DNA from: Persephonella marina EX-H1
GTDB lineage: Bacteria > Aquificota > Aquificia > Aquificales > Hydrogenothermaceae
Assembly: GCF_000021565.1 (NCBI RefSeq)
Contig: NC_012440.1
Location: 822,210 to 886,209, forward strand
DNA: 64,000 nucleotides
Direction of reading: 5' to 3'
In this document: in pieces, positions 10,883-26,494 of the stretch
How positions within the stretch are numbered: the first letter of the stretch is position 1
Layout of the letters: each line of letters begins with the position of its first letter
Notes under the pieces: model-generated
What the model was told of the DNA's origin: nothing
The model's input: the letters and a program-made list of their open reading frames with translations, nothing else
The model's database searches: none
Translations under genes and position numbers: made by a program

Positions 10883-11970
10883 GATCAATACTTTACTTTC
10901 TGATATCTTTCCTTGGTTTATCTTTTATCGCCTTTGCAGGTGGAGGACATGGACATGGAGACCTTGGAGAAGGGGAGTTTGAACTGAGTAAGGAGATAGT
11001 TGAAAAACTGAATATAAAATGGGATCTGGTTAAAGAGAGGGAGATTTCCTTAAAAAGGAAGTATCCTGCTGTTGTAAAGGATGATCTTACACTATCAGAA
11101 GCTGTTTACTCACCTGTTGAAGGTATCGTTAAAAAGCTATTTGTAAAGGAAGGAGATCCTGTTAAAAAAGGTCAGAAACTTGCACTTATATACTCACCTG
11201 AGATAAGGAAGCTCATAGCTGATATAAAACTTGCACAGGTAAAAGTCAGAAATCTTAAGGCTGTTTATGAGAGGGAGAAGAAGCTATATGAAGCTGAAGT
11301 GATACCATACGGTAGATTTTTTACAGCAAAGATAAATTATGAGAACGCTTTAGGTGAGCTTAACGCACTCAAGGAATCTCTCAGAGCTTACGGGGAGATA
11401 GAAGGAACATACCTTGTTCTCAAATCTCATATGGACGGGTATGTTGCCGTTCAGAATGTTGTTCTTGGAGATAGTGTTGATCTTTCAAAACAGCTTTTCA
11501 AGATACACTCCCATGAAAAACTGTGGGTTGTTGCACTGGTTCCCGTTGGGGAGACAGGAATTTTCAAGGAAGGAATGAATGTTGATATCCTTTCTCCACT
11601 TGGGAAAACAAAAGGTTTCGTAGATTTCATAAGTCATAAGGTAGACCCTGAAACCAAGAGAAATGAGGTGAGAATCATAGGTGATAACTCAAATGACACA
11701 TTAAAACCAAATATGTTTGTTGATGTTCTGGTGAAAAAGAAGAAGGTAAAAGGGATTTTTATACCTGAAAAGGCTGTTGTCCTTAAGGATGGAAAGTTCT
11801 ATGTTTTCCAGAAGGAAAACAGTCATGTCTCACCTGTGGAGGTTGTGTTAGGTGAAAAGATAGATGGCTTTTACAGACTTATAGATGGTTTACATGAAGG
11901 TGATCAGATAATAGTTGAAGGTGTCTCTTTTCTGAAAAGCAGATTTTTAGCTGAAGTTGAAGGACATTAA
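10879..11970 (+). CDS. RND efflux periplasmic adaptor subunit (CzcB/CusB type)
   Basis: This 363-residue membrane fusion protein links the inner-membrane pump to the outer-membrane channel. A signal peptide (residues 1-20) is followed by a His-rich mature N-terminus, GGGHGHGDLGEG, which may bind the exported metal. A lipoyl-like half (SPVEGIVKKLFVKEGDPV), a helical hairpin (about residues 105-160), the second lipoyl half (LKSHMDGYVAVQNVVLGDSV) and beta-barrel domains follow in the usual order. It sits between the channel and pump genes with four-base overlap upstream and an 11-base gap downstream. Confidence 0.9.
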   Translation: MRSILYFLISFLGLSFIAFAGGGHGHGDLGEGEFELSKEIVEKLNIKWDLVKEREISLKRKYPAVVKDDLTLSEAVYSPVEGIVKKLFVKEGDPVKKGQKLALIYSPEIRKLIADIKLAQVKVRNLKAVYEREKKLYEAEVIPYGRFFTAKINYENALGELNALKESLRAYGEIEGTYLVLKSHMDGYVAVQNVVLGDSVDLSKQLFKIHSHEKLWVVALVPVGETGIFKEGMNVDILSPLGKTKGFVDFISHKVDPETKRNEVRIIGDNSNDTLKPNMFVDVLVKKKKVKGIFIPEKAVVLKDGKFYVFQKENSHVSPVEVVLGEKIDGFYRLIDGLHEGDQIIVEGVSFLKSRFLAEVEGH

Positions 11971-11981
11971 GGGAGGAAAAG

Positions 11982-14900
11982 ATGATTAGATGGATACTTC
12001 AGTATAGATTACTTGTTATTTTTGCCCTTATAGGTGTTATCTCTTACGGTTATTACTCATTTAAAACTATCCCTGTTGATACATTTCCTGATCCAACACC
12101 ATTACAGGTAAATATATACACGGAAGCACCCGGTTACTCTGCAGAGGAGGTTGAGGCTCTCATAACAAAAAAGATAGAAACTGTTATGTCCGGGATAAAG
12201 GATGTTGAGAAGGTAAGGAGTACATCTATACCTGGTCTTTCCTATGTTGCGATATTCTTCAAAGACGGAACGGATATCTACTTTGATAGAAGACTTGTTA
12301 TGGAAAAACTCCCTGAGGCCCAGAGTCAGCTTCCCCCAGGTATCGTTCCTATTATGGGGCCTAACACTTCAGGACTTGGAAATGTTCTTATATACGCGCT
12401 TATCACTGAGAACAATAAGTACTCTCTAACAGATCTAAGGGCGATCCAGGAATGGCTTATAAAACCTATACTTAAATCTATAGACGGTGTTGAGGATATA
12501 TCACAGTGGGGTCCTGAAAAGGCATACCTTATTAAGCCAGATCCTGAAAAACTTATACAGTACGATCTCACACTTGGAGATATATTTGAGGCTGTTGAGA
12601 GAAACGGCGGTCTTGCAGGTGGTGGATACACAAAGACACCTGAGGGAGATCTTGTTGTAAGAGCCGTTGCAAGTATAACAGAAATAGATCAGATAAAGGA
12701 GATCCCTGTAAAGGTAGATCACGGAACTGTTATAAGAGTAAAGGATCTGGCTGTTGTTGAGGAAGGTGAAGTTCCCCAGAGAAGAGGTGCATTCACACTC
12801 AATGGAGAGGAAGTTCAGGGTAATATCGTTCTTAAAAGGGTTCACACAAACACAAAAGAGCTTATAAAAAAACTTAAAGCTGAGATAGAAAAGATAAACA
12901 GTGAGGTTCTACCGGAGGATGTAAAGATAGTCATACTTTACGATCAGTCTTATCTCACAGACAAAGCACTTTCAACGATAGAAAAGGCATTACTTGAAGG
13001 TATAATTCTTGTTTCAATAGCTATGATGATATTCCTCTGGAATGTAAGGGCTGCTGTTTTAGTTATTCTATCAATCCCTTTTACACTTCTGATAGCATTT
13101 GCCGTTATGAAAAATCTCGGACTTACCGCTGATCTTATGTCACTTGGAGGTCTTGCTATAGGACTTGGTCTTTTTGCTGATGCTACAGTTGTTGTTATAG
13201 AGAATATATTCAGACATTTAAGTCATGCTAAAAACAGGGTGAATAATAAAGAGGTAAAACTTGAAATTATTAAGTTATCAGTTCAGGAGATAACAAGACC
13301 TGTATTCTTTGCGATAATCATAATAATGGTTGTTTTCCTTCCTATCTTCAGTTTTGAGTCTGTTGAAGGTAAATACTTCAAGCCCCTTGCCTTAACCATA
13401 ATAGTTGCCCTTGCTGCATCTCTCCTTGTTGCATATGTCTCAATGCCTGTTCTCGCTTACTTTGGTCTGAAACCAGGATCAGAAAAGAATGTTGTTATGG
13501 ATTTTATAGAGAAGATCTATATAACAGTCCTGAAAGGGGCGATGAAAATAGGTCTTCCACTGTTTGTTGCAACGGTTATTCTTTTTGGTTTTTCTGTATA
13601 TCTTCTCACGAAAGTGGGAACAGAGTTCACACCTGAGCTTGATGAGGGAGCTGTATTACTTGAGGTTTTTCTGGATACTAACATATCGAGGGAGGAAGCT
13701 AAGAAGATAGCAAATGTTATTGAGGAAAGGGCAAAATCCTTTGATGTTGTTACAAATGCGTTCACAACGGTAGGAAGGGCTGAGAAAGGTGAGGTTACAG
13801 ATGTTTCATACTTTGAGGTATGGATACTTCTAAAGCCGTACAGGGAATGGAAAAGTATGAAAACGAGAAAGGAGTTTGAGGAGGCTTTAAGGGAGAAGTT
13901 ACATGATCTGCCTGTAGCAGGACTTGTTTTCACACAGCCGATTGCTATGAGGATAGAGGAGCTTCTATCCGGAGTCAGGGCTATGATAGCTGTTAAGGTT
14001 TTTGGTGAGGATCTTAATGAGATAAATAGGATAGCCATGAAGGTTGAGGAGGTAGCAACAAAGATACCAGGTGCTGTTGATGTTGAAACGGAGATACAGT
14101 CTGGAAGGCTCCAGCTCCAGATTATACCGAAGTACGATCAGCTTTACAAATACGGATATGATGTCCAGAGATTGTTAGACCTTGTAGGCGAGTATATGGC
14201 TGGTGTTGAGGTGAATGAGTTCAGAAAAGAGCTTATCAGCTTCCCCGTTATGATAAAACTTCCTGAGGACACGCTTGATAATATTGAAAAGATAAAAAAT
14301 ATTCCTCTTTTCAGGAAGGATGATGGAACACTGCTCAGGCTTCAGGATGTGGCAGATGTTAGAATAGTCCCTGGATTTTCAAAGATCAGACATGAGAACG
14401 GGCTCAGGTATGCTCTTGTTCAGATGAATCTTGAAGGAAGAGATCTTGGAGGTTTTATAAGGGAGCTTGAGGCAAAGATAAAGGAGGAGATAAAGCTTCC
14501 TGAAGGATATTTCATAAAGTTTGCAGGACAGTTTGAGAATCAGGAAAGGGCTATGAAGAGACTCTCTATAGTCGTTCCTATAGCTATCCTTCTGATATTT
14601 GTTCTCCTTTATATAAATTACAACTCTGTAAGGGATTCTCTCCTGATAATGTTAAATGTTCCGTTTGCGACAATTGGAGGTATATTAGCCCTATATATAT
14701 CAGGTTTTCATCTTTCAGTTCCGGCAGCGATAGGTTTTATAGCCGTATTTGGTATAGCAACGCTTAACGGTGTTGTTCTAGTTTCATACATAAGGCAGAT
14801 GCTTGATGAGGGCTTTGATATTGAGGAATCAATAAACAGAGCCACAAAGCTAAGATTAAGACCTATACTTATAACGGCAACAGCTGCATCCCTTGGTCTT

Positions 14901-15053
14901 CTCCCTATACTCTTTACACAGGATATAGGTTCAGAGATACAGAAACCTATAGCTGTTGTTGTGATAGGAGGTATATTCACATCAACATTCTTAACATTAA
15001 TACTTCTGCCTATAGTTTATAAGATCGTTTACAGACTGACACAGAAGGCCTAA
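11982..15053 (+). CDS. Heavy-metal efflux RND pump (CzcA/CusA family)
   Basis: This 1023-residue inner-membrane proton/metal antiporter of the HME-RND family has twelve membrane helices and two large periplasmic loops. The TM4 proton-relay motif reads GLGLFADATVVVIEN, with Asp400 and Glu407 present. The first Asp of the CzcA motif (DFGxxxD) is replaced by Gly394, and CusA has Ala there. This points to a CusA-like (Cu+/Ag+) or another HME subgroup rather than classical Zn/Co/Cd CzcA. It is the last gene of the three-gene pump operon, and a strong hairpin follows three bases after its stop. Confidence 0.93.
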   Translation: MIRWILQYRLLVIFALIGVISYGYYSFKTIPVDTFPDPTPLQVNIYTEAPGYSAEEVEALITKKIETVMSGIKDVEKVRSTSIPGLSYVAIFFKDGTDIYFDRRLVMEKLPEAQSQLPPGIVPIMGPNTSGLGNVLIYALITENNKYSLTDLRAIQEWLIKPILKSIDGVEDISQWGPEKAYLIKPDPEKLIQYDLTLGDIFEAVERNGGLAGGGYTKTPEGDLVVRAVASITEIDQIKEIPVKVDHGTVIRVKDLAVVEEGEVPQRRGAFTLNGEEVQGNIVLKRVHTNTKELIKKLKAEIEKINSEVLPEDVKIVILYDQSYLTDKALSTIEKALLEGIILVSIAMMIFLWNVRAAVLVILSIPFTLLIAFAVMKNLGLTADLMSLGGLAIGLGLFADATVVVIENIFRHLSHAKNRVNNKEVKLEIIKLSVQEITRPVFFAIIIIMVVFLPIFSFESVEGKYFKPLALTIIVALAASLLVAYVSMPVLAYFGLKPGSEKNVVMDFIEKIYITVLKGAMKIGLPLFVATVILFGFSVYLLTKVGTEFTPELDEGAVLLEVFLDTNISREEAKKIANVIEERAKSFDVVTNAFTTVGRAEKGEVTDVSYFEVWILLKPYREWKSMKTRKEFEEALREKLHDLPVAGLVFTQPIAMRIEELLSGVRAMIAVKVFGEDLNEINRIAMKVEEVATKIPGAVDVETEIQSGRLQLQIIPKYDQLYKYGYDVQRLLDLVGEYMAGVEVNEFRKELISFPVMIKLPEDTLDNIEKIKNIPLFRKDDGTLLRLQDVADVRIVPGFSKIRHENGLRYALVQMNLEGRDLGGFIRELEAKIKEEIKLPEGYFIKFAGQFENQERAMKRLSIVVPIAILLIFVLLYINYNSVRDSLLIMLNVPFATIGGILALYISGFHLSVPAAIGFIAVFGIATLNGVVLVSYIRQMLDEGFDIEESINRATKLRLRPILITATAASLGLLPILFTQDIGSEIQKPIAVVVIGGIFTSTFLTLILLPIVYKIVYRLTQKA

Positions 15054-15120: not shown

Positions 15121-15609
15121 ATGGAGTTACTATCACAGTTACACCCACCGATGGTTCATTTTGCTATAGCACTTGTGATGATAGGTGTGTTTTTTGATAT
15201 AGCAGGTTTTGTTCTAAAGAAGGATCATCTTAAACATGCAGGTTTCTGGACTATAGTTTTTGGTATGCTTGCAGTATGGGGAGCAGCATTTACAGGTCAT
15301 CAGGCAGAGGAGCTCGTTGAGGAAGCCATAAAAGGAACAGCAGCTTACGAACTTCTTGAGAAACATGAGGAGATAGGGGAGATACTGCCCTGGGCTGTAA
15401 CTGTATTGGGTCTTTTAAGGATATATCTGTTTTTCAAAAGTAAGGATCTATTATTTATCGTTTACCTGATCGCAGGTATTGTTGTAGCAGGTGTTATAGG
15501 TCTTCAGGGAAGAATAGGTGGAAAACTTGTTTATGAACATGGCGTTGGGGTGAAAGGAAAAGGTGTCCAGATACAGGAAAAGTACCACAACCATGAAGAT
15601 GAAGAGTAA
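15121..15609 (+). CDS. DUF2231 family membrane protein
   Basis: This 162-residue protein has four hydrophobic segments and the DUF2231 signatures LHPPMVHFAIALVMIG at the N-terminus and GGKLVYEHGVGV near the C-terminus; conserved His residues lie in both. The family is often found beside metal or redox membrane proteins, and its function is not established. The tail is rich in His and acidic residues (EKYHNHEDEE). AAGGAGG lies five bases before the ATG. Its stop overlaps the next ATG by one base, making a two-gene unit with the VIT-like protein, probably read with or just after the metal pump. Confidence 0.85.
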   Translation: MELLSQLHPPMVHFAIALVMIGVFFDIAGFVLKKDHLKHAGFWTIVFGMLAVWGAAFTGHQAEELVEEAIKGTAAYELLEKHEEIGEILPWAVTVLGLLRIYLFFKSKDLLFIVYLIAGIVVAGVIGLQGRIGGKLVYEHGVGVKGKGVQIQEKYHNHEDEE

Positions 15610-16082
15610 TGATAAGTTATATTAAGAAAGGTATAGGATTTGGTCTGACTTCAGGTGTGATCACAACCTTAGGTATGCTGATCGGACTTTCTGCTATATC
15701 TGAATCAAAAGCTATCATCGTTGGTGGTATAATCTCCATCGCTATAGCTGATGCTGCTTCTGACGCACTTGGGATACATATAGCCGAGGAATCTCACGAG
15801 AAATCAGAGGCAAGACATATATGGACAGCTACTATCTCAACATTCATCTCAAAGTTTGTTATAGCCTCTTCATTTCTTGTCCCTCTTCTTTTTCTTGATA
15901 TGAGGCTTGCCGTTCCTGTCTGTGTTCTGTGGGGGTTTTTCCTTCTTACAGTTTTCAGTTATAAGATAGCCAAGGATAGAGATGAGAATCCTTTAATTAC
16001 TATACTTGAGCATATCAGTATAGCCTCTGTTGTTCTTATAATCATACATTTAACAGGTGAACTGATAAGAAGATTACAGTAG
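15609..16082 (+). CDS. VIT1/CCC1-like membrane transporter
   Basis: This 157-residue protein with about four to five membrane helices resembles the VIT (vacuolar iron transporter)/CCC1 family. The N-terminal helix GFGLTSGVITTLGMLIGL, the second helix IVGGIISIAIADAASDALG and the acidic AEESHEKSEA stretch are typical, and an Asp and several Glu/His could handle iron or manganese. It is shorter than eukaryotic VIT1 and lacks a separate cytoplasmic metal domain. Context (metal efflux genes, DUF2231) suits a metal-related role. Substrate is inference. Confidence 0.75.
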   Translation: MISYIKKGIGFGLTSGVITTLGMLIGLSAISESKAIIVGGIISIAIADAASDALGIHIAEESHEKSEARHIWTATISTFISKFVIASSFLVPLLFLDMRLAVPVCVLWGFFLLTVFSYKIAKDRDENPLITILEHISIASVVLIIIHLTGELIRRLQ

Positions 16083-16094
16083 GGTAAAATTACC

Positions 16095-16121
16095 TTGATT
16101 TATAAGTTATAACCATATAAT
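16095..16121 (+). promoter_or_regulatory. Probable sigma-70 type promoter of the PqqD/ATP-grasp operon
   Basis: TTGATT at 16095-16100 and TATAAT at 16116-16121 are separated by 15 bases, shorter than the ideal 17 but with a perfect -10. Transcription would start near 16128, about 20 bases before the ATG at 16147. GAGG lies just upstream of that ATG. It separates the new operon from the VIT gene that ends at 16082. Confidence 0.55.
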
Positions 16122-16146
16122 TTAATCTAAAAAAAGAGGTTTTAAG

Positions 16147-16383
16147 ATGGACAGGATTTCACAGCTTGCTATAAATGAAGAAGGTTTTGTTTTTGATCCT
16201 TTAACAGGTGAGAGTTTTACCGTAAACCAGACAGGGCTTTTGATACTGAAAGGGTTAAAAGAGGGGAAAACAGAAGAGGAGATCGTTGAGGAAATCGTTG
16301 AGAACTTTGAGGTCTCAAAGGATGAGGCTGAAAGGGATCTGACAGATTTTATAGAGAAGCTGAGAAGCTATAGACTCATTTAG
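16147..16383 (+). CDS. Stand-alone PqqD-like RRE protein
   Basis: This 78-residue protein matches the PqqD fold: an N-terminal beta portion (EGFVFDPLTGESFTVNQTG), the ILKGLKEGKTEEEIVEEI helix pair, and a C-terminal helix ending DFIEKLRSYRLI. The phrase with NQTG before a helix and LxxG-K/T-EEEI is characteristic. PqqD-like domains are RiPP recognition elements that bind leader peptides and present them to modifying enzymes. Here it is the first gene of a seven-gene unit and lies 8 bases before an ATP-grasp ligase. No PqqA/PqqE, radical SAM or lasso genes are present, so its peptide partner is unknown. Confidence 0.8.
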   Translation: MDRISQLAINEEGFVFDPLTGESFTVNQTGLLILKGLKEGKTEEEIVEEIVENFEVSKDEAERDLTDFIEKLRSYRLI

Positions 16384-16391
16384 GAGGAGGT

Positions 16392-17432
16392 ATGGATATT
16401 AAGATAGGTGTTTCAGGGGTAAATGCTGTTGACAATCCGGGTCCCGGCATCGGTGTTGCAAAAAGCCTGAAGGAAGCCGAAGATTTTAAAGCTGAGATCA
16501 TCGGTCTTGCATATGATGCTATGGAACCTGGGATATACATGGACTGGATAGTTGATAGGTCTTTCATAATGCCTTACCCATCGGGAGGACATGATGCCTT
16601 CATAAACAGACTTTACTACATAAAGGAAAATAACGGTCTTGATTTTTTTATGTCAGTTTTAGACTCTGAGCTTCCTGTCCTTATAAAGTATGCCGATGAG
16701 CTTGAGAGAAATGGGATAAAAACATTTCTCCCAACACTTGAGCAGTTTAAACTGAGAGGGAAAGACAGACTTGAGGAGATAGCAGTTAGTATAGGTATAG
16801 ATATTCCAGAATCTGAGGTTGTCTCATCTGTTGACGAGCTTTTAAAAGCTGTTGATAGGATAGGACTTCCTGTTATGGTAAAAGGGGCATTTTACAAGGC
16901 TTACAGAGCTTACACAAAACAGGAGGCTGTAAATTACTTTAATAAGATCGTTGCACAGTGGGGTTATCCTGTGATTGTTCAGCAGGTTGTTACAGGTGAG
17001 GAGATGAATGTTGTTGGTGCAGGTGATGGAGAGGGGGGATCACTTGGAATGGTAGGTATAAAAAAGATCTGGATTACAGAGCTTGGCAAGATATGGACAG
17101 GTGTGACCATAAAGAATGAAAAGATGCTCTCAGCAGCTGAAAGGTTTATAAAAAAGTTTGGGTGGAGGGGGGCCTTTGAGCTTGAGTGTATTGTTGATCT
17201 GAAAAATGATAAGGTTTACCTGATAGAGATAAACCCAAGATTTCCGGCATGGTCTTACTTCGCAACAGGTGTTGGTGTGAACATACCTGCAAATATCATA
17301 AGAAAAGCGTTTGGAATGCCTGTTGTTCAGTATAAGGATTATCCCGCCGGGAAGCTTTATGTAAGGTACACAGATGATCTTGTTACAGATATGGAAAGAT
17401 TCCAGAGAATAATAACAAGAGGTGAGAGCTGA
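16392..17432 (+). CDS. ATP-grasp ligase of unknown substrate
   Basis: This 346-residue ATP-grasp enzyme resembles carbamoyl-phosphate synthase and biotin-carboxylase ATP-binding domains. The N-terminal Rossmann-like part has IGVSGVNAVDNPGPGIGV. The ATP-binding Lys lies in GLPVMVKG and the hinge in VIVQQVVTGEE. The Mg-binding Glu279 and Asn281 are in LIEINPRFPAW. These enzymes make an acyl-phosphate and join it to an amine or thiol. The stop overlaps the next start by one base, and the PqqD-like protein is immediately upstream, so all three proteins probably act on one substrate. I do not recognise a characterised member. Confidence 0.85.
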   Translation: MDIKIGVSGVNAVDNPGPGIGVAKSLKEAEDFKAEIIGLAYDAMEPGIYMDWIVDRSFIMPYPSGGHDAFINRLYYIKENNGLDFFMSVLDSELPVLIKYADELERNGIKTFLPTLEQFKLRGKDRLEEIAVSIGIDIPESEVVSSVDELLKAVDRIGLPVMVKGAFYKAYRAYTKQEAVNYFNKIVAQWGYPVIVQQVVTGEEMNVVGAGDGEGGSLGMVGIKKIWITELGKIWTGVTIKNEKMLSAAERFIKKFGWRGAFELECIVDLKNDKVYLIEINPRFPAWSYFATGVGVNIPANIIRKAFGMPVVQYKDYPAGKLYVRYTDDLVTDMERFQRIITRGES

Positions 17433-18787
17433 TGAAAAAGGTTTATGAGAAGCCTGTTATAACAAAGCTTGAGACAGGTTTTATGAATAAATTTGGGGGT
17501 TCTCCCCTTTATGCAAGAAAGATAAGAAAGGATATAGACGGCGTTCCCGTTTCTGAACTTGTTGAAAGGTACGGCTCCCCTCTATTTGTGATATCTGAAA
17601 GAAAACTGAGGGAAAGATACAGAAAGATATACAACGCCTTCTCATCAAGATACCCTAACGTCCAGTTTGGCTGGTCTTACAAAACAAACTATCTAAAGGC
17701 TGTCTGCTCAGTACTCCATCAGGAGGGGGCTATAGCTGAGGTTGTCTCAGCCTTTGAGTATGAGAAAGCGAGAAATCTCGGTATAGATGGTAAGAATATA
17801 ATATTCAACGGTCCTCACAAAACCCTGGATATTCTTGAAAAGGCTGCATCTGAAGGGGCAATGATACATATAGATCATTTTGATGAGATAATTGATCTTG
17901 AGAAGATTGCAGACAGACTGGGAAAAAAGATAAAGGTAGCCATAAGGGTGAATATGGACACCGGTATACACCCACAGTGGGACAGATTTGGGTTTAATCT
18001 TGAAACGGGACAGGCTTTAGATGCTGTAAAAAGGATAGCAACAGGTGGAAAGCTTGTTCTGAATGGGCTTCACTCACATATAGGAACATTCATACTTGAG
18101 CCAGAAGCTTACGGAAAGGAAGTTGAGAAGCTTGTTAAACTTGCATATGAGATAGAGGATAACTTCGGTTTCAAGATAGAGTATCTTGATATAGGTGGTG
18201 GATTCCCTTCTAAAAACAAACTGAAGGGAACTTATCTTCCACCGGATGTTCTCGTTCCTTCAGTTGAGGAGTATGCTGAAAAGATAACTGAGGCTCTGTA
18301 CTCAAATTTGAGACCTGGAGACTTTCCAAAGCTTATACTTGAGACGGGAAGAGCAATTATAGATGAGGCTGAGTATCTTATAACCACCATATTCGCATCA
18401 AAAAGACTTCCAGACGGAAGGAAGGCTTACATAGCTGATGCTGGAGTGAACATCCTTTTTACAGCTTTCTGGTATAAGTTCAATATAGAGATTGACAGAG
18501 AAGTTCAGGGGACGAACGAGCCTTCCGTTATATACGGACCTTTATGTATGAATATAGATGTTATAGACGATGGAACGATGCTCCCACCTCTTGAGAGGGG
18601 AACAAGACTGATCATATCACCTGTAGGAGCATACAACAACACACAGTGGATGCAGTTCATTGAGTACAGACCTAATGTTGTTATGATCATGGAGGATGGA
18701 TCTGTTGAGATAGTCAGAGAAAGGGAAGATATCTCCGATATTGAAAGAAGGGAGAGATTACCTGAAAAACTTAGAATAAATCAGTAA
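17432..18787 (+). CDS. Fold-type III PLP decarboxylase homologue (LysA/ODC-like)
   Basis: This 451-residue alanine-racemase-fold enzyme belongs to the diaminopimelate/ornithine decarboxylase group. The PLP-binding residue is Lys84 in SYKTN. Further active-site elements are HSHIGT, LDIGGGFP, ETGRAI, Cys372 in YGPLCMNID and the final GAYN. These suggest real decarboxylase chemistry, although substrate is unknown. An extra N-terminal segment of about 30 residues begins MKKVYEKPVITKLETG, which resembles the YxxPxLxxxG leader motif that RRE domains bind; the RRE-like PqqD gene is two genes upstream. It is translationally coupled to the ATP-grasp gene. The housekeeping LysA is less likely because of the context and this extension. 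Confidence 0.82.
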   Translation: MKKVYEKPVITKLETGFMNKFGGSPLYARKIRKDIDGVPVSELVERYGSPLFVISERKLRERYRKIYNAFSSRYPNVQFGWSYKTNYLKAVCSVLHQEGAIAEVVSAFEYEKARNLGIDGKNIIFNGPHKTLDILEKAASEGAMIHIDHFDEIIDLEKIADRLGKKIKVAIRVNMDTGIHPQWDRFGFNLETGQALDAVKRIATGGKLVLNGLHSHIGTFILEPEAYGKEVEKLVKLAYEIEDNFGFKIEYLDIGGGFPSKNKLKGTYLPPDVLVPSVEEYAEKITEALYSNLRPGDFPKLILETGRAIIDEAEYLITTIFASKRLPDGRKAYIADAGVNILFTAFWYKFNIEIDREVQGTNEPSVIYGPLCMNIDVIDDGTMLPPLERGTRLIISPVGAYNNTQWMQFIEYRPNVVMIMEDGSVEIVREREDISDIERRERLPEKLRINQ

Positions 18788-18794
18788 TGGATCT

Positions 18795-20879
18795 ATGAGA
18801 GTAAAGATAAAAGAGGATATAAAAGCTATCTTTAACAGTTACTCTGAGATATTTTTCTTTGAGAACTATTTAGCCGGATCAGTTCTGTTTTTTCTCACAT
18901 TTTTGAACCCAAATATCGGTGTAGCAGGTATAATAGCACTTTTCTCAGCTTACATATTTGCAAGATTTCTTAAGATGGAAAAGGAGTTTTTATCATCAGG
19001 ATTTTATACCTATAATCCTCTCCTTGTTGGACTGTCCATCGGGTATCTTTTCAAGATAACACCTCTTACAGTGTTCTTTATAGCTGCTTCAGGGATCTTG
19101 ACTTTCGTTTTTTCTGTTATGCTTTTCAGCCTTTTCTCATACTATCTCAGGCTACCAATACTCAGTATACCTTTTGTTGTTATAAGCTCAACAATATACC
19201 TTGCTGTTTCAAACTACTCAAACCTATTTGTAAGCTCCCTTTATCCACACATAAATTTTTCCTTTCTTGAAAACTATATTCCTGTATGGGTGTCAGGTTA
19301 TTTTAAATCCCTTGGGACGATACTTTTCTTACCTGACATACTTGCAGGTTTTATCTTCTCCCTTGTGATCTTCTATATCTCAAGGATACTCTTTTTCCTG
19401 TCAGTTATCGGTTACTACAGCGGAACTTTTGCCTCAGGTATCTTGACAGGCTCTCTCTACCAGGCGTTTTCAGATATAAGCCATTTTAATTTTATACTGA
19501 TATCAATGGCACTTGGAGGTATATTTCTTATACCATCTATAAGGTCCTACTTTGTTGCTTTAACAGGTGTTATAACCTCAACCATTGTTCTTTCAGCTAT
19601 AAAAACCTTCTGGGCATTGTACGGCATACCGGCATTTACACTTCCTTTTAATATTATCACCTTAACATTCATATATGTTTTAGGTATCGTTGGGTTCCCT
19701 TTTGTTGCAAGGATAATAAGGAAAACACCTGAAGAGACACTTGATTTTTACCTTACCAACCTTAAGAGATATAAAGGGTCTGAAAGAACTCTACACCTGC
19801 CTTTCTCAGGCAGATGGACTGTGTATCAGGGTTTTAATGGAAGATGGACGCATAAAGGTGGATGGAGGTATGCTTACGATTTTGTTATAACAGATGAGGA
19901 AGGGAAGACCTACAGGAATGAAGGTCTTGAACTTGAGGATTACTATGCATTCAGAAAACCTGTTTTATCCCCTGTTAGAGGAAGGGTTGTAAAGGTCATA
20001 AATGATCTTCCTGATAATCCTATAGGTCAGGTGGACAGGGAGAACAGCTGGGGAAATCTTGTTATTATCCACGATCCGAGAGGTTTTTATGTTGAGATAT
20101 CCCATCTCTCATACAGATCAGTAAAGGTAAAGGAGGGGGACTGGGTTGAGGTTGGAAGTTATATAGGACTGTGTGGAAATTCAGGTTACTCCCCACAGCC
20201 ACATATTCATATTCAGGTACAGCTGTCTGACAGTGTGGGAGGATATACAGTTCCCTTCAGTTTTGTTAATTTCATATCTGATGGAAGATTTTACTCAAAC
20301 GATCTTCCTGATGAGGGAAGCGTTGTGGAGCCTGTATTCCCAGATAAAACTCTTGAACTTAAGTTCTCATTCGTCCTTGATAACTCCTTTGAGTATAAGG
20401 TTTTAAAAAAGGGAAAAGAGGAAGAAAGGCTTAAGATCACTGTAAAGATGTCCCCTGACGGAACTTTTTATTTTGATTCAGGTAAGGGAAAGCTTTACTT
20501 TGGAAAGTATGAGGGAACATTTTACTTTTTCAGGCTTGATGGTGATGATGAATACCTTAAACTGCTCTTTGAAGCTTTACCTAAGATACCTCTGTTCTAC
20601 AGGCAGGGTATCAGATGGGAAGACCATATACCTTTAAAGATAGTAACAGGAAAGCTTAAAAATTCAGTCATACTTTTTATAAGCTCTTTTAAACATGATT
20701 TTGCAGATGTAAAATATACAGGGGAGTTTCTTGATATTAGAAAGATAAAAGGGTCTGTAAGATCAAGCATACTTAATATGAGGAAAGATTTTTATGTTGA
20801 GTTAGACGAATTTTTGGGTATAAAAAGTGTCAGAACGGATGATATAGAGTTAGAACTTGTAAAAACAGAGTACAAGTAG
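18795..20879 (+). CDS. Urea-transporter-like membrane domain fused to M23 peptidase
   Basis: This protein has 694 residues. Residues 1-310 contain about ten hydrophobic helices and resemble the urea transporter (UT) family, for example YNPLLVGLSIGYLF near residue 73 and the late TLPFNIITL helix. Residues 340-500 form an M23/LytM metallopeptidase domain: QGFNGRWTHKGGW with His353, Asp362 in YAYDF, His437 in HLSYRSV, and the PHIHIQV pair His470/His472. The last 190 residues are beta-rich without a recognised motif. If the even number of helices is right, the C-terminal parts should be periplasmic and could act on peptidoglycan or a peptide. No urease genes are in the window. Confidence 0.82.
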   Translation: MRVKIKEDIKAIFNSYSEIFFFENYLAGSVLFFLTFLNPNIGVAGIIALFSAYIFARFLKMEKEFLSSGFYTYNPLLVGLSIGYLFKITPLTVFFIAASGILTFVFSVMLFSLFSYYLRLPILSIPFVVISSTIYLAVSNYSNLFVSSLYPHINFSFLENYIPVWVSGYFKSLGTILFLPDILAGFIFSLVIFYISRILFFLSVIGYYSGTFASGILTGSLYQAFSDISHFNFILISMALGGIFLIPSIRSYFVALTGVITSTIVLSAIKTFWALYGIPAFTLPFNIITLTFIYVLGIVGFPFVARIIRKTPEETLDFYLTNLKRYKGSERTLHLPFSGRWTVYQGFNGRWTHKGGWRYAYDFVITDEEGKTYRNEGLELEDYYAFRKPVLSPVRGRVVKVINDLPDNPIGQVDRENSWGNLVIIHDPRGFYVEISHLSYRSVKVKEGDWVEVGSYIGLCGNSGYSPQPHIHIQVQLSDSVGGYTVPFSFVNFISDGRFYSNDLPDEGSVVEPVFPDKTLELKFSFVLDNSFEYKVLKKGKEEERLKITVKMSPDGTFYFDSGKGKLYFGKYEGTFYFFRLDGDDEYLKLLFEALPKIPLFYRQGIRWEDHIPLKIVTGKLKNSVILFISSFKHDFADVKYTGEFLDIRKIKGSVRSSILNMRKDFYVELDEFLGIKSVRTDDIELELVKTEYK

Positions 20880-20888
20880 AGGTTCGTT

Positions 20889-21743
20889 ATGGTAAGAAGG
20901 GTTATAGCTGTTTTTCTTTCATTATTTACACTTTCAACAGCAGGAACAGCTTACAGATTTGATACAGTTTTTTATACAGGTGCTATACAGTATGACAGCT
21001 CAATAAGAGATTCAGGTATGACAGCAGGTGTTTACTGGTATCTTGGAGTAGGGCTTGAACACTCCTTAGAAGGGGAGATAGATTACACATACATAAAGTA
21101 TCTGACTCAGCCTGATCTGAACCAGTTTGATCTTACTCTTCTTTATACAAACTACTCCTTTATGAACAGAAAGATAAGATTTGGATACCACCGTATATTC
21201 TCAGATGATAAAAATACAGATATGGGAAGTATATTCACATTAGGCTATGAGTATTACATACCTTACAGGTACAGTGCAGGTTTTGATATTAACTACTCAT
21301 TTTATCCTGATTACTCAACTGGTAAAAAGGGATTATCAGTTTTCCAGATAACACCTGGTATAAGCTACAGTTTTGGTGACTACTACAGTTATGGAAGTTT
21401 TACAGCGGGACTTAAAGCTTATCTGATACAGCTGTCTGATAATACAGGGTTCGGTAAGAGCTTTTACTCAACAGAGGGAAGTTTAGATTATTACTACGGC
21501 AGTCTTACAGCAGGTTTTTCTTTATGGGCTGGGGAGCAGTCATTCGCCGTTAAGAACCACGGCTTTATCGTTTACAATCTTTCAGAAAAATACACAGGAG
21601 GATACTCTTTATACCTTAGGTATATCTTAAGTAAAAATATGAGCTTTACAGGAAAGTACAGCAGAACAGAGTTTAAAGAAGCAGGGAGTCCTTTAAAGAG
21701 TAAGGCGAGTATATTTGTGATCACGGTGGGAACAACATTTTAG
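20889..21743 (+). CDS. Exported, probable outer-membrane beta-barrel protein
   Basis: This 284-residue protein has a signal peptide (residues 1-22, cleavage likely after STAGTA) followed by alternating aromatic/polar strands rich in Tyr, Phe, Gly and Ser. It ends in a strand with terminal Phe (ITVGTTF), a common feature of outer membrane barrels. Six to ten strands are plausible from the pattern. I recognise no named family. It is nine bases downstream of the UT/M23 gene and six bases upstream of the TPR gene, so it is probably the outer-membrane part of the same envelope system. Confidence 0.65.
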   Translation: MVRRVIAVFLSLFTLSTAGTAYRFDTVFYTGAIQYDSSIRDSGMTAGVYWYLGVGLEHSLEGEIDYTYIKYLTQPDLNQFDLTLLYTNYSFMNRKIRFGYHRIFSDDKNTDMGSIFTLGYEYYIPYRYSAGFDINYSFYPDYSTGKKGLSVFQITPGISYSFGDYYSYGSFTAGLKAYLIQLSDNTGFGKSFYSTEGSLDYYYGSLTAGFSLWAGEQSFAVKNHGFIVYNLSEKYTGGYSLYLRYILSKNMSFTGKYSRTEFKEAGSPLKSKASIFVITVGTTF

Positions 21744-21749
21744 AGGAAT

Positions 21750-22364
21750 GTGATGAGAGGAATCATATCTATCTTACTTATACTTTCTGTTTTTTCTTAC
21801 GCTTTAGATTATGAAAAGATAAAAGATGCCTACTACAGATCCTACCAGTATGAAAAGGTTGGGGATTTTGAGAATGCTGTAAAATCAATCATGATCGTGT
21901 ATAAAGAGTATCCTGAAGGTTACACTGTAAATCTCAGACTTGGATGGCTTTATTACCTTAATAAGAATTACGCAAACTCCATATACCATTATGAGAAGGC
22001 TTTAAAGGTCATCCCGTCATCTGTTGAAGCGAAACTGGGGTACACGCTCCCCCTTTTAGCCCAGGGGAAGTATACAGATGTTGAGAAGATATGCTACCAG
22101 ATACTTAACACAGATTTTTATAACTATTATGGAAATCTAAGACTGTCCTTTGTCTTAAGGATGCAGAAAAAGTATGATATGGCTGTAAAGGTTATAAATA
22201 AGATGCTCTCTTTATATCCTACAGATATTAATTTTCTAACTGAGCTTGCTCTTGTAAGGTTTTATCAGGGGGATAAAAAACAGGCTGAGTATCTTTTTAA
22301 GGATATACTCATACTTGATCCTGAAAATGTAACAGCAAAGGAGTACCTGAAAAAATTAAGATGA
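21750..22364 (+). CDS. Exported tetratricopeptide repeat protein
   Basis: This 204-residue protein starts with a signal-like segment (residues 1-18). Four to five TPR units follow, visible as repeated pairs of helices: GDFENAVKSIMIVYKEYPEG, KNYANSIYHYEKALKVIPSS, GKYTDVEKICYQILNTD, KKYDMAVKVINKMLSLYP and GDKKQAEYLFKDILILDPEN. TPR proteins are scaffolds for protein contacts; the export signal places this one in the periplasm. It lies between the barrel gene and the cyclotransferase-like gene (4-base overlap). Confidence 0.8.
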   Translation: MMRGIISILLILSVFSYALDYEKIKDAYYRSYQYEKVGDFENAVKSIMIVYKEYPEGYTVNLRLGWLYYLNKNYANSIYHYEKALKVIPSSVEAKLGYTLPLLAQGKYTDVEKICYQILNTDFYNYYGNLRLSFVLRMQKKYDMAVKVINKMLSLYPTDINFLTELALVRFYQGDKKQAEYLFKDILILDPENVTAKEYLKKLR

Positions 22365-22705
22365 CAGACCACCTTTTCGTTTATGGAACGTTAAAAAGGG
22401 GCTACAGACTTCATCACTATCTAAAGAATTCCAGATTCGTATCTGAAGGTTTTGTAAAAGGATACAGGATGTATCTCGTTTCATGGTATCCGGCTGTTGT
22501 GAAAGGTGATGGTATCGTTTATGGTGAGGTTTATAAGATAGATGAAAGAACTCTTAAGATTATAGACAGGGTTGAGGATGAAGGGAGTCTATATGTAAGG
22601 GAGATTGAAAATGTTGAGACAGAAAAAGGGATAATACCGTGTTATATCTATATTTACAGGGGAAAAGTGGAAGGGCTAAAAGAGATAAAGTCAGGCAGAT
22701 TTTAA
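22361..22705 (+). CDS. Gamma-glutamylcyclotransferase-like (AIG2/GGCT) protein
   Basis: This 114-residue protein has the GGCT/AIG2 fold. The substrate loop YGTLKRG lies at residues 8-14, and the candidate catalytic Glu is in DRVEDEG (about residue 73). Family members release 5-oxoproline from gamma-glutamyl peptides or gamma-glutamyl amines; some small bacterial members are uncharacterised. It ends the seven-gene unit, starts four bases before the TPR stop, and overlaps the convergent nasA stop by four bases. An involvement in cleaving a gamma-glutamyl-type conjugate made by the ATP-grasp protein is possible but speculative. Confidence 0.8.
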   Translation: MTDHLFVYGTLKRGYRLHHYLKNSRFVSEGFVKGYRMYLVSWYPAVVKGDGIVYGEVYKIDERTLKIIDRVEDEGSLYVREIENVETEKGIIPCYIYIYRGKVEGLKEIKSGRF

Positions 22706-25173
22706 TCCTGCTTTCTTAGCTCCCTATCCTCGTAGTATCTCTTAACTATCTCAAATATACCGTGGAATAAAAACTCGTAGGTGTATTCCCATGCTATAAG
22801 CTCATCTTTATCAAGATCAAATATCCTTTCCATACTTTTTGAAAAGCTTTCAGTCAGGGATCTCTGGTATTCAGGCTGGAAGTTTAGTGAGATATAAATA
22901 GATGCTATCTCTTCATTTAAAACCATAGCTTTTTCCCAGTCTGTAGGATTGAGTATGAAAAGTCTTATTAGCTCTCCTGTTTTCATTGTTAAAAGTTTAA
23001 CACTTTCGCTGTCCATACCAAGTTTATCTTTTATACTGTGAAATCCTGTTTCTAAAGCATCATCCAGGAATCTTTCAACGGCTTTAAAGCTGTTCTTTAC
23101 CTTCTGGTATGTATCATCTGAAAGTCTGTATATCCTTTTCTTCCTTGCCTTCATATAAACGGAGCTGAACTTAAGTTCAGGTTCCTTTGAGATAGGGTCT
23201 ACAGCATCTGAAACAAGGATGTTTGTAGGGAAATGGTAGATCTTTCCGTATCCAAAGGGTGCAAAAAGAACACCCCTTCTGATACTTCCAACCTTTGTTT
23301 TTATATAGATCTGTCCCCTCTTTGATCTTACATTTATGTAGTCATTGTCTACAATACCAAGTTCAAAAGCATCCTTCTCATTTATCAGTATGTAAGGCTC
23401 GGCCTCGTCTCTGAGCAGTTCAAGGGATTTTCCTGTTCTGGTCATTGTGTGCCACTGCTTTTTTGTTCTTCCTGTAGTCAGGATAAAAGAGTATGGATAC
23501 TTTACCCTGTCTTCAGGTTCTTTAAAAACAGCTCTGTTGAACTTTGCCTTTCCGGATGGGGTTGGAAACTTTTTGTCCCTGTATAGCCATCTTTCACCCC
23601 ATCTCTTTGGAAGGTCTTCATAACTGAAATCAGAGATATCACACAGCCTGCCTTTTGTTGTCTTTTTATACTCGTCAAATATTTCCTTTGAGCTTTTATA
23701 ACTGAAATGTTCTTCCCAGCCTAATCTTTTTGCTACCTCACAGAATATCTCCCAGTCGTGCTTACACTGTGGTGGAGGATCTCTGAATATGCCGTTGTAT
23801 GTTATGGTTCTGTCAGAACCTGTCATCACACCTTCTTTCTCACCCCACTGTGTTGCAGGAAGGACTAAATTTGCATAATCAACAGAGTCAGTCAGATAGG
23901 CATCCTGAACTATCACAAATGTATTTCTTAAAGCTTTCCAGAATTTATTAAGGTTAGGCATGGTAACGGCAGGATTTGTACAGACAATCCAGAAGAGCTT
24001 TATATCACCATCTATCATTCTTTCAACAGCTTCAACAGCGGTTACTCCAGGTTTTTCTTTTATAGATCCTTCATGAATCTTCCAGAATCTCTCCATAAAA
24101 TCCCTGTCCTCTTTATTTCTCACATCCCTGTATCCTGGAAGTCCGTTAACAAGATAGCCAACCTCCCTTCCACCCATGGCGTTTGGCTGACCTGTAAGTG
24201 AGAACGGACAGCCTTTCTCATTAATTCTGCCTGTGGCAAGATGAAGGTTTATCAGGGAGATATTTTTCATCGTTCCATTTGAAGACTGGTTCAACCCCAT
24301 AGTCCAGAAAGAGATCAGTTTCTTACTGAAAGCATAGATCTCTGCCAGTTTATATATATGACTCTCTTTTATACCACATATCTGAGCTGCTATATCAGGA
24401 GGGTATCTCTCTGCTTCATCTATAGCATCTTCAAAGTTTTCAGTATGTTCTTTTATAAATCCGTAATCAAGCCATCCTTTTTTGTTAAGTAAGTACAGAA
24501 CACTGTTAAAAAGTACCGTATCTGTTCCAGGTTTTATATCAATCCATATATCAGCTTTATCTGCTGTTGCTGTTTTAACAGGGTCTATAACTATTATTCT
24601 GGTTTCAGGATACTCTTTCTTTCTCTTCAGAACCCTTTTAAAGAGTACAGGATGTGTCCATGCTGCGTTAGATCCTGCGAATACAAAGGCATCTGAATCA
24701 TCAATATCCTCATAACTTCCAGGTACACCATCAGAGCCAAAAGAGAGTTTGTATCCCATAACAGCTGATGCCATACACAGCCTTGAGTTTGCATCTATAT
24801 TGTTTGTTCTTATAAACCCTTTAACAAATTTGTTTATAACGTAGCTGTCCTCTGTTGTTAGCTGGCCTGATATATAGAAGTAGTTTTCATCTGGTTTATT
24901 ATGGGTCAGTTTTTCAGAGATTATATCAAATGCCTCCTCCCAGCTTATCTCTCTGAACTGTTCTTTTTTATTCTCCCTGTAAAGTGGGGATGGAACACGT
25001 CCAATATCCATAACCTTGGGATATGGTACAGGCTTTAGACAGAGGTCACCTGATGTTGCAGGATGTTTTTTATCACCTCTTATCTTTGTTCTTCCTTTTC
25101 TGTCTTTAAAGATCTCCAGACCACATCCTACCCCACAGTAAGGGCACTGGGCTTTTGCGAGAATCTCACTCAT
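22702..25173 (-). CDS. nasA: Assimilatory nitrate reductase catalytic subunit
   Basis: This molybdopterin enzyme reduces nitrate to nitrite in the cytoplasm. The N-terminus binds a [4Fe-4S] cluster through CPYCGVGC and LCLKP. Molybdopterin-binding segments follow (SNAAWTHPV, TNPAVTMPN, LPATQWGEKEGVMTGSDR), and the C-terminal MGD domain includes TTGRTKKQWHTMTRTG. The start is placed at the ATG ending at 25173 (823 residues), because GAGGAG lies seven bases upstream; narK stops one base before it. The protein is about 100 residues longer than ordinary NasA/NarB: residues about 683-823 are an added helical domain of unknown function. It lacks the BFD-like [2Fe-2S] tail of enterobacterial NasA, and ferredoxin is the likely donor. 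Confidence 0.93.
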   Translation of the reverse strand: MSEILAKAQCPYCGVGCGLEIFKDRKGRTKIRGDKKHPATSGDLCLKPVPYPKVMDIGRVPSPLYRENKKEQFREISWEEAFDIISEKLTHNKPDENYFYISGQLTTEDSYVINKFVKGFIRTNNIDANSRLCMASAVMGYKLSFGSDGVPGSYEDIDDSDAFVFAGSNAAWTHPVLFKRVLKRKKEYPETRIIVIDPVKTATADKADIWIDIKPGTDTVLFNSVLYLLNKKGWLDYGFIKEHTENFEDAIDEAERYPPDIAAQICGIKESHIYKLAEIYAFSKKLISFWTMGLNQSSNGTMKNISLINLHLATGRINEKGCPFSLTGQPNAMGGREVGYLVNGLPGYRDVRNKEDRDFMERFWKIHEGSIKEKPGVTAVEAVERMIDGDIKLFWIVCTNPAVTMPNLNKFWKALRNTFVIVQDAYLTDSVDYANLVLPATQWGEKEGVMTGSDRTITYNGIFRDPPPQCKHDWEIFCEVAKRLGWEEHFSYKSSKEIFDEYKKTTKGRLCDISDFSYEDLPKRWGERWLYRDKKFPTPSGKAKFNRAVFKEPEDRVKYPYSFILTTGRTKKQWHTMTRTGKSLELLRDEAEPYILINEKDAFELGIVDNDYINVRSKRGQIYIKTKVGSIRRGVLFAPFGYGKIYHFPTNILVSDAVDPISKEPELKFSSVYMKARKKRIYRLSDDTYQKVKNSFKAVERFLDDALETGFHSIKDKLGMDSESVKLLTMKTGELIRLFILNPTDWEKAMVLNEEIASIYISLNFQPEYQRSLTESFSKSMERIFDLDKDELIAWEYTYEFLFHGIFEIVKRYYEDRELRKQD

Positions 25174-25174
25174 C

Positions 25175-26494
25175 TTAAAGCTCCTCAATCGGCTTGTTTA
25201 TCTCTTTTCCGTAGGCTTTCCATAGTAGTCCTGATATGATAATTGCCATAACAGATAGAAGAACGTAAACTATAAAACCTTTTGAGTAACCTGAGATACC
25301 AAAGTTCTGGACAAAAATGCCCAGTATAGGTGGAACAACAAATCCCCCAAATGCTCCCAGACCACCAACCCATCCTGCAGCACCACCTGTAGCATGTGGA
25401 ACATACTTGGGGACAAGTTTGAAAACAGCACCGTTTGCAATACCCATACCTGCTCCCATTAAGATCTCACCTGCCAGAGAGACTGAGAAGTTTGTATTTC
25501 CACCTGATATAACGATAAGAGCGCCTATCAGTATCATTCCAAAAGCAACTATTGAGACGAGTTCACCACCGATCTTATCAGACATCCATCCGCCGAAAAT
25601 CCTTATAACAGAGGCGAGTAAGGAAAAACCAAAGGCCATCAGAAGTCCTGCATGTCTCACTTCCATATCATAGCTCTCAACCCAGAAAACGATAAACCAG
25701 CCTGTCAGAGCGAGGAAACCACCAAAAGAGGTGAAATATAATGCTACTAAAGCCCATGTTTCAATATGTCTTGCTGAGTTTTTGAGGGATTCAATAAGAC
25801 TGCCTGTTGGTATAAGTTCCTGTCCTTTTTCCTTTGCTCTGATTATAGCCTCATCCCTTGGGATACCAGATTTGATTAGCTGGAAGTAAGGGGCATCTTT
25901 TGCAAAAAGGATATAAATAACAGTTCCAACAAGTAAAAAACCAAACCAGAGTATATATGATGTTGTTAGTCCGATCTCTTTTAAAGCAAAGGGGAGAACA
26001 AGTCCAAAGAGACCAGGAGCAAGATTTCCCACACCTGCGTAAATCCCAAGTGCAAAACCCTGTTTATTTTCAGGAAACCAGTAAGCTGTCTGGGCGATTC
26101 CCACTGAAAAAGTGGCTATACCACATCCACTTAAAAAACCGAAAAATAGTATAAGCCAGTACATCCATGGTTCAAGGTTAGGGTAGTAGAAGTATAGGAG
26201 CGTAGATAAACCTCCCATACCTATAACAGACAGTACGAGCAGTGTTGTTAATGGTATCTTTCCACCAGCCTTATCCACCCATGCTGCAAAAGGTATTCTT
26301 AAAAGAGAACCTGTGAGATTAGGTGCTGCAACGAGAAGTCCAAGTAAAAAACCAGAAAGCCCTAAGATCTCTTTCAGATTTTTTGCAACAGGTCCGTACA
26401 GTGAGACAGCTGCAAACCCTATAAAAAATCCAAATGTTGCCATTATAAGTCCTGTCATAGGACTACCTTTGATCCTGAAACTGTTACTTTCCAT
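25175..26494 (-). CDS. narK: Nitrate/nitrite MFS transporter
   Basis: This 439-residue major facilitator of the NNP (NarK/NrtP/NasA-transporter) family has twelve membrane helices. The family nitrate signature regions show as LGIYAGVGNLAPGLFGL and GGAAGWVGGLGAFGGFVVP. Context between nirA and nasA indicates nitrate uptake for assimilation. AAGGAGG is six bases before the ATG, and the start overlaps the nirA stop by 11 bases; nasA begins right after it. The narK symbol is used loosely for the family. Confidence 0.93.
   Translation of the reverse strand: MESNSFRIKGSPMTGLIMATFGFFIGFAAVSLYGPVAKNLKEILGLSGFLLGLLVAAPNLTGSLLRIPFAAWVDKAGGKIPLTTLLVLSVIGMGGLSTLLYFYYPNLEPWMYWLILFFGFLSGCGIATFSVGIAQTAYWFPENKQGFALGIYAGVGNLAPGLFGLVLPFALKEIGLTTSYILWFGFLLVGTVIYILFAKDAPYFQLIKSGIPRDEAIIRAKEKGQELIPTGSLIESLKNSARHIETWALVALYFTSFGGFLALTGWFIVFWVESYDMEVRHAGLLMAFGFSLLASVIRIFGGWMSDKIGGELVSIVAFGMILIGALIVISGGNTNFSVSLAGEILMGAGMGIANGAVFKLVPKYVPHATGGAAGWVGGLGAFGGFVVPPILGIFVQNFGISGYSKGFIVYVLLSVMAIIISGLLWKAYGKEINKPIEEL

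Follow-up and report, generated by a model that had tools for sequence, protein, structure and literature searches.

In a 64,000-nucleotide stretch of the Persephonella marina EX-H1 genome (the window), six adjacent genes form one conserved cassette encoding a stand-alone PqqD-like recognition element (RRE) of the type known from ribosomally synthesized and post-translationally modified peptides (RiPPs), an ATP-grasp ligase, a fold III pyridoxal phosphate (PLP) decarboxylase, a urea transporter (UT)-like domain fused to an M23 peptidase (UT-M23), a beta-barrel, and a tetratricopeptide repeat (TPR) protein. The decarboxylase begins with a leader-like tail, and its motif suggests that the RRE probably binds this tail and so holds the decarboxylase against the ligase. 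A broader model, in which an RRE-organized ligase/decarboxylase complex would produce a decarboxylated amino-acid conjugate for subsequent handling in the envelope, has in our estimate a probability of about 0.5. The features are as follows (aa, amino acids; DAP, diaminopimelate; GGCT, gamma-glutamylcyclotransferase).

16147..16383, + strand: stand-alone PqqD-like RRE, 78 aa (PF05402, E 3e-16)
16392..17432, + strand: ATP-grasp ligase, 346 aa, NAVDNPGPG family (Pfam and family comparison)
17432..18787, + strand: fold III PLP decarboxylase, 451 aa (Pfam Orn/DAP/Arg decarboxylase, two-domain, 5e-34)
17432..17497, + strand: leader-like N-terminal tail of the decarboxylase, residues 1-22, YxKPxIxK..G.xNKFG (alignment)
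17444..17461, + strand: YEKPVI, predicted RRE recognition motif, decarboxylase residues 5-10 (match to published motifs)
18795..20879, + strand: UT-M23 membrane protein, 694 aa (PF03253, 6e-62; PF01551, 2e-11)
18819..19691, + strand: UT (SLC14-like) domain of UT-M23 (PF03253, dvUT structural match)
19815..20234, + strand: M23 metallopeptidase domain of UT-M23 (invariant H353, D362, H437, H470, H472, C460)
20259..20876, + strand: C-terminal beta-rich domain of UT-M23 (predicted structure and family alignment)
20889..21743, + strand: predicted exported 14-strand outer-membrane beta-barrel, OmpG-like (AlphaFold pLDDT 91.5, OmpG TM-score 0.64)
21750..22364, + strand: exported TPR protein, GTG start (Pfam TPR)
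22361..22705, + strand: GGCT/AIG2-like gene overlapping the TPR gene (PF06094, E 1e-27), outside the conserved unit

The sequence-only reading had described seven plus-strand open reading frames (ORFs) at 16147-22705 as an operon behind one promoter. The coordinates held, with gaps of 2-9 bases or overlaps of 1-4 bases, as did the domain identities, for which Pfam returned PqqD, ATP-grasp, Orn/DAP/Arg decarboxylase, UT plus M23, TPR, and GGACT/AIG2. The seventh gene, however, is not a member of the unit. No GGCT gene stands at that place in any of 17 related genomes whose ligase locus is intact or in any of 80 wider loci, and the lone match, recovered twice (L047, L121), came from a single genome, where the gene is unlinked and lies 3 kb off. 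A single promoter was likewise not supported, as the region 15400-23000 contains 20 promoter-like sites compared with 22.4 +/- 5.2 in shuffled sequences. On the minus strand (window 22702-26494), genes read from their translations as molybdopterin oxidoreductase-like and NarK-like (major facilitator superfamily) face the cassette, and because they converge on it they fix its 3' limit.

A genome-neighborhood search, the check that had been suggested for this unit, recovered the cassette at no fewer than 80 loci from about 15 phyla in the near-constant order RRE-ATPgrasp-PLP-UTM23-(barrel)-TPR. One genome per species was used in this wider scan, and phyla were counted from record titles, some of which are surely wrong for metagenome-assembled genomes (MAGs), such as a "Klebsiella" bin. 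That locus (L077, CALQJI020000002.1, titled a Klebsiella pneumoniae MAG) holds a nearly Verrucomicrobia-like cassette and was probably mislabeled. By title, the loci belong to Aquificota, Calditrichota, Ignavibacteria/Kapaibacteria, Verrucomicrobia/Lentisphaerae, Planctomycetes, Gemmatimonadetes, WOR-3, Wallbacteria, Aminicenantes, Omnitrophus, Thermodesulfobacteria, Desulfurobacteriaceae, Desulfurellaceae/Hydrogenimonas, Deltaproteobacteria, Thiomargarita/Chromatiaceae, and Lambdaproteobacteria. A shared order across this range is far beyond chance. When only loci with sufficient flanking sequence are counted, the RRE was present in 74/75, the decarboxylase in 71/73, UT-M23 in 52/56, the TPR protein in 42/49, and the barrel in 38/54. 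Median intergenic distances between cassette genes ranged from -8 to 13 bases, and the pairwise distance matrices of the six proteins were correlated (r 0.73-0.90). Close relatives of the ligase (60-84% identity) occur in 17 of 60 related genomes, with a patchy distribution even within genera. Their loci keep the RRE-ATPgrasp-PLP order, mostly followed by UT-M23, barrel, and TPR, and the same arrangement persists where ligases are only 33-42% identical. Additional recurrent neighbors in the wider loci were a mixed set, none of them universal.

Co-occurrence was also evaluated without regard to linkage. Of 61 related genomes, 18 have both the ligase and the tailed decarboxylase and the rest have neither, and within genera g4 and g7 the presence and absence of the two agreed exactly. 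In an independent class, 4 of 188 genomes carry the ligase, and the same 4 carry the decarboxylase and a full-length UT-M23. In another phylum the ligase is present in 10 of 198 genomes, all 10 of which have the decarboxylase (counting G276, where it lies at a contig end). Pooled over the three samples, none of the 415 ATP-grasp-negative genomes has a tailed decarboxylase. Fisher p values were 8e-16, 2e-8, and 5e-17 for the 61, 188, and 198 genomes, uncorrected for shared ancestry. Apparent cases of a ligase without a decarboxylase were rejected: the Aquificales exceptions encode the decarboxylase elsewhere in the genome, and in G276 the contig end truncates the tailed decarboxylase that comes after the tandem ligases. 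The two ligases of that locus (L169:1783-3923), placed between the RRE and the decarboxylase, are divergent and could represent a two-step ligation variant. In the f3 genomes, the RRE-ligase pair and the decarboxylase lie apart, both intact. Full-length UT-M23 accompanies the ligase in 18/18 ligase-positive relatives, unlinked in three g9 and most f3 genomes. UT-M23 also occurs in two ligase-negative draft genomes, in one of them only as a contig-end fragment. Joint decay was seen in G038 (L154, L048), where the ligase is broken across three frames and 51 N-terminal residues of the decarboxylase are left (the tail plus about 15). The sequence-only reading had named rare co-occurrence, or a separate known pathway for each gene, as grounds for giving up a common unit; neither was found, and the genes travel together across genomes.

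About 34 N-terminal residues of the decarboxylase are absent from its LysA paralogs, and alignments with LysA and FigC begin near residue 35. Across phyla this tail follows the consensus YxKPxIxK(L/V/I)xxGxMNKFG. In readable sequences Y5 and P8 are invariant, K7 is conserved in 95%, K12 in 89% (K or R in nearly all), and G16 in 89%. Relatives with ligases of only 33-42% identity retain the tail, as do genomes in which the RRE and decarboxylase genes lie apart. PqqA has the same W-x2-P-x7-G spacing. Discrete RREs of lasso peptide pathways recognize [Y/W]xxPx[L/V/I/F/A], a sequence essential for binding (PMC13381572), and RREs of the FusE/McjB/PqqD/StsC groups bind W/Y/LxxP-type sequences (PMC12710340); YEKPVI in the decarboxylase fits both. 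A 37-residue tail query against 14 genomes gave a single real copy in each, always on the decarboxylase, with no second tail-bearing protein among them. Six-frame reading of the longer ligase-decarboxylase gaps in Verrucomicrobia revealed no conserved small ORF that could be a precursor peptide, although a very divergent one is possible. Because the tail fits the RRE motif, is single-copy, and was found with no precursor, the RRE probably docks onto an enzyme rather than a RiPP precursor.

This arrangement shares with discrete-RRE RiPP pathways (lasso, PQQ, LPP; PMC13381572, PMC12710340) a stand-alone PqqD-like RRE, an N-terminal YxxPx(hydrophobic) motif, and a neighboring enzyme able to form amide bonds. 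It differs in that the motif lies on a 451-residue PLP enzyme instead of a short precursor with leader and core, no lasso cyclase, radical SAM enzyme, or precursor gene is present, and the envelope genes have no RiPP precedent. The best NCBIfam score of the RRE, 53.7 bits to the lasso PqqD chaperone NF033530, falls under that family's cutoff. Nor is the cassette of the graspetide type, in which a RimK/MvdD-type ligase stands beside a precursor; its ligase is instead CPS/PRK12767-like, with 2pn1 as the nearest solved structure (E 6e-13). In microviridins, the leader is bound by the ATP-grasp enzyme itself (PMC8939145).

All three catalytic sites in the cassette (ATP-grasp, PLP, and M23) are conserved. 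The ATP/Mg residues K164, E265, E279, N281, and R283 of the ligase are kept in 81/81 sequences. As the sequence-only reading had noted, the PLP active site is intact: the PLP lysine K84, HIGT, GGG, ETGRA, C372, and Y401, all features of the alanine racemase (AR) fold, occur in all or nearly all of 71 decarboxylases. The nearest solved relative of the decarboxylase is FigC/FslC (7kh2, E 4e-60), compared with 1e-41 for the best DAP decarboxylase and near 1e-24 for BtrK. With the FigC/FslC, SbnH, AcsE, MccE, and BtrK clade, whose members decarboxylate amino acids already attached to something (FigC uses N-citrylornithine, BtrK carrier-bound glutamate; PMC7857480), it shares fold, catalytic residues, best sequence match, and the C-M-x-x-D loop. 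FigC T327, Y331, M355, and Y383 correspond to T344, Y348, M373, and Y401, whereas I375 and Q405 stand in the places of the citrate contacts H357 and R387. Because likeness to this clade is kept while the citrate contacts are lost, a conjugate is a plausible substrate and a citryl conjugate is not. The cassette enzyme also differs from the clade in its leader-like tail and in having an ATP-grasp ligase and RRE as partners rather than an NRPS-independent siderophore (NIS) synthetase. Membership in FslC/FigC (NF041039, 232 bits vs. a cutoff of 500, in addition to the replaced contacts) and in LysA (TIGR01048, 223 bits vs. 298, with a separate LysA elsewhere in the genome) was rejected. The butirosin side-chain pathway employs the ATP-grasp enzyme BtrJ and the cyclotransferase BtrG alongside the decarboxylase BtrK. 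The cassette resembles it in pairing an ATP-grasp enzyme with an AR-fold decarboxylase for a held amino acid, and a GGCT-like gene happens to lie in the window. No acyl carrier protein is encoded, however, FigC scores far above BtrK, and a butirosin-like set including GGCT was rejected, as the GGCT linkage is not conserved.

The AlphaFold model of UT-M23 (pLDDT 92.4) contains a UT fold that matches dvUT with a TM-score of 0.81-0.85 by target length, and the NPLLVG, LPxLSxPF, and LPFN motifs are shared with SLC14/UT channels (dvUT, UT-B). Unlike those channels, it is fused to M23 and beta-rich domains, and its selectivity for urea is doubtful because the dvUT positions Q24 and E187 are not kept: they are E18 and T175 here, and in the family they are variable or mostly Ala (E18 in 41/61, Ala at 175 in 47/61). 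A canonical urea channel was thus rejected, given the lost filter residues and a TIGR03441 score of 106 bits against a cutoff of 274.6. The M23 domain is likely an active peptidase because its zinc ligands and catalytic histidines (H353, D362, H437, H470, H472) are invariant, as is C460. It shares this full set and the fold of Csd1-2, DipM, ShyA, and lysostaphin with M23/LytM peptidoglycan endopeptidases but differs in being carried on a UT channel, in its probable cytoplasmic location, and in a first His that precedes the Asp by 9 residues instead of 4. The UT fold consists of two inverted halves, so both of its ends lie on one side of the membrane. K+R exceed D+E in the N-flank (2.4 vs. 0.5) and the C-flank (1.9 vs. 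0.2) but not in the inter-half loop (1.0 vs. 1.4), and UT-M23 averages 3.4 Cys past residue 300 (including C460) compared with 0.8 in the exported barrel and 0.5 in TPR. This charge bias and these Cys counts place the M23 domain probably on the cytoplasmic face. The barrel protein has no Pfam match. As the sequence-only reading anticipated for a barrel-like exported protein, its AlphaFold model (21-sequence alignment) is a closed antiparallel barrel with an N-terminal helix fitting a signal peptide, and its top Foldseek matches are OmpG, OmpC, CymA, and FadL-type porins.

In the model that we propose, RRE, decarboxylase tail, and ligase would assemble as a complex in the cytoplasm. The ligase would build an amide conjugate from an amino acid, using its side chain or attaching it to a carrier, and the decarboxylase would strip the alpha-carboxylate from that conjugate much as FigC and BtrK do with their substrates; by analogy with these enzymes, such a sequence of steps is conceivable, at somewhat less than even odds. 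More tentatively, UT-M23 may act as a cytoplasmic membrane peptidase that trims or releases the product beside the modified UT channel, with the porin-like barrel and the TPR protein handling it in the periplasm and outer membrane. Several observations weigh against this model. The barrel and TPR genes are absent near some loci, the nearest solved relatives of the ligase are generic CPS-like enzymes, and homology, charge bias, and free cysteines are the whole basis for a cytoplasmic M23. In addition, N19 (95%), K20 (94%), and G22 (92%), which lie past the RRE motif, are conserved like the motif itself, and simple docking would not need them.

The conservation of these residues would fit a tail that serves as a built-in substrate or carrier. 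In this reading, the RRE would present the tail to the ligase, which would either load an amino acid onto the N19-K20 region or cross-link that region; the loaded group would then be the substrate of the decarboxylase, M23 would cleave the tail afterwards, and the enzyme would be its own precursor peptide. Several deep relatives retain the NK pair, BtrK and MccE show that amino acids borne on a carrier or peptide can be substrates of AR-fold decarboxylases (PMC7857480), and an M23 domain on the same membrane side would be at hand. K20, however, is replaced in the intact loci L093 (P), L090 (T), and L167 (G), and the tail core is degenerate in L124, L125, and L128, which speaks against this explanation because a modified residue should not tolerate such changes; we regard it as unlikely. 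Its specific form, a self-carrying enzyme in which the ligase loads NKFG of the RRE-delivered tail, the decarboxylase acts, and the membrane M23 releases the product, is similarly unlikely, but if true would describe an enzyme built on RiPP logic as its own precursor peptide. An ordinary RiPP pathway, whose precursor is encoded elsewhere, too short, or too divergent and in which the tail merely helps the decarboxylase to join the complex, would suit an RRE and ATP-grasp enzyme, a RiPP-like pair, and short precursors are easily missed. Nevertheless, the tail motif is single-copy, the long gaps lack a conserved small ORF, and the tight cassette spacing leaves no room for a precursor gene in most loci, making this quite improbable.

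Two further explanations begin from the enzymes rather than the tail. The conjugate could be a chelator, as in the siderophore routes of FigC, SbnH, and AcsE, and the nearest solved decarboxylase is indeed a siderophore enzyme; a CusCBA-type efflux operon also precedes the cassette in the window and close relatives, with an efflux or metal-type gene upstream in some others. A metallophore is nonetheless improbable, considering that the citrate-binding residues are lost, neighbors vary by lineage, and no uptake receptor recurs among them. Alternatively, the cassette could recycle peptidoglycan peptides or amino acids, with uptake through porin and UT, cleavage of DAP peptides by M23, and reuse of the parts by the ligase and a DAP-decarboxylase-like enzyme. 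Peptidoglycan is the usual target of M23 domains, as the Csd, DipM, and ShyA matches illustrate, and the decarboxylase family includes LysA. Yet the same genomes have a separate LysA, the decarboxylase is nearer to FigC than to DAP decarboxylase, the RRE and tail are left unexplained, and the family is patchy within genera, unlike housekeeping recycling; we consider this very improbable.

The cassette thus has elements in common with RiPP and conjugate-decarboxylase pathways but belongs to none of the families tested, because RiPP, LysA, FslC, and canonical urea transporter assignments each miss a tested feature. The sequence-only claim of an undescribed unit of RRE, ATP-grasp ligase, PLP decarboxylase, and envelope proteins therefore stood, whereas the leader peptides that it named as RRE partners gave way to a motif on the decarboxylase N terminus, and its proposal that the envelope proteins move or process the product stays tentative. 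No description of the cassette, or paper joining its families, was found in the openly readable literature to which our search was limited, and the cassette may be new relative to that literature, although an earlier neighborhood note may exist. Searches for RiPPs use RREs as a class-independent marker and assume that the precursor peptide is encoded nearby; in this cassette, across some 15 phyla, it is a metabolic enzyme that carries the recognition motif. Should this be confirmed, RREs would double as enzyme-docking modules, RRE-based genome mining would also be detecting non-RiPP pathways, and diderm bacteria would have a widespread and strongly conserved metabolite or modification that has so far gone undescribed.

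Several neighboring features were observed around the cassette. Upstream in the window (9698-15053, same strand), genes for an OEP, a CusB/HlyD-type protein, and a 1023-aa AcrB-type resistance-nodulation-division (RND) protein form the CusCBA-like operon, and DUF2231 and VIT1-like genes lie between it and the cassette. RND and DUF2231 genes are also upstream in several relatives, and VIT in one. In Desulfurobacteriaceae (L104:4294-8748), a sigma54-type two-component pair, a DUF2202 ferritin-like protein, and a DUF4405 membrane protein are encoded upstream, and similar sets precede L089, L098, L103, and L124. Eight Verrucomicrobia-type loci (L065, L068, L074, L077, L081, L087, L091, L096) encode a large exported surface-like protein directly after TPR, about 6.5-7.2 kb past the ligase start. 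Finally, a second RRE and a truncated ligase are found 2.6 kb before the intact cassette at L100:187-900, perhaps through a recent partial duplication.

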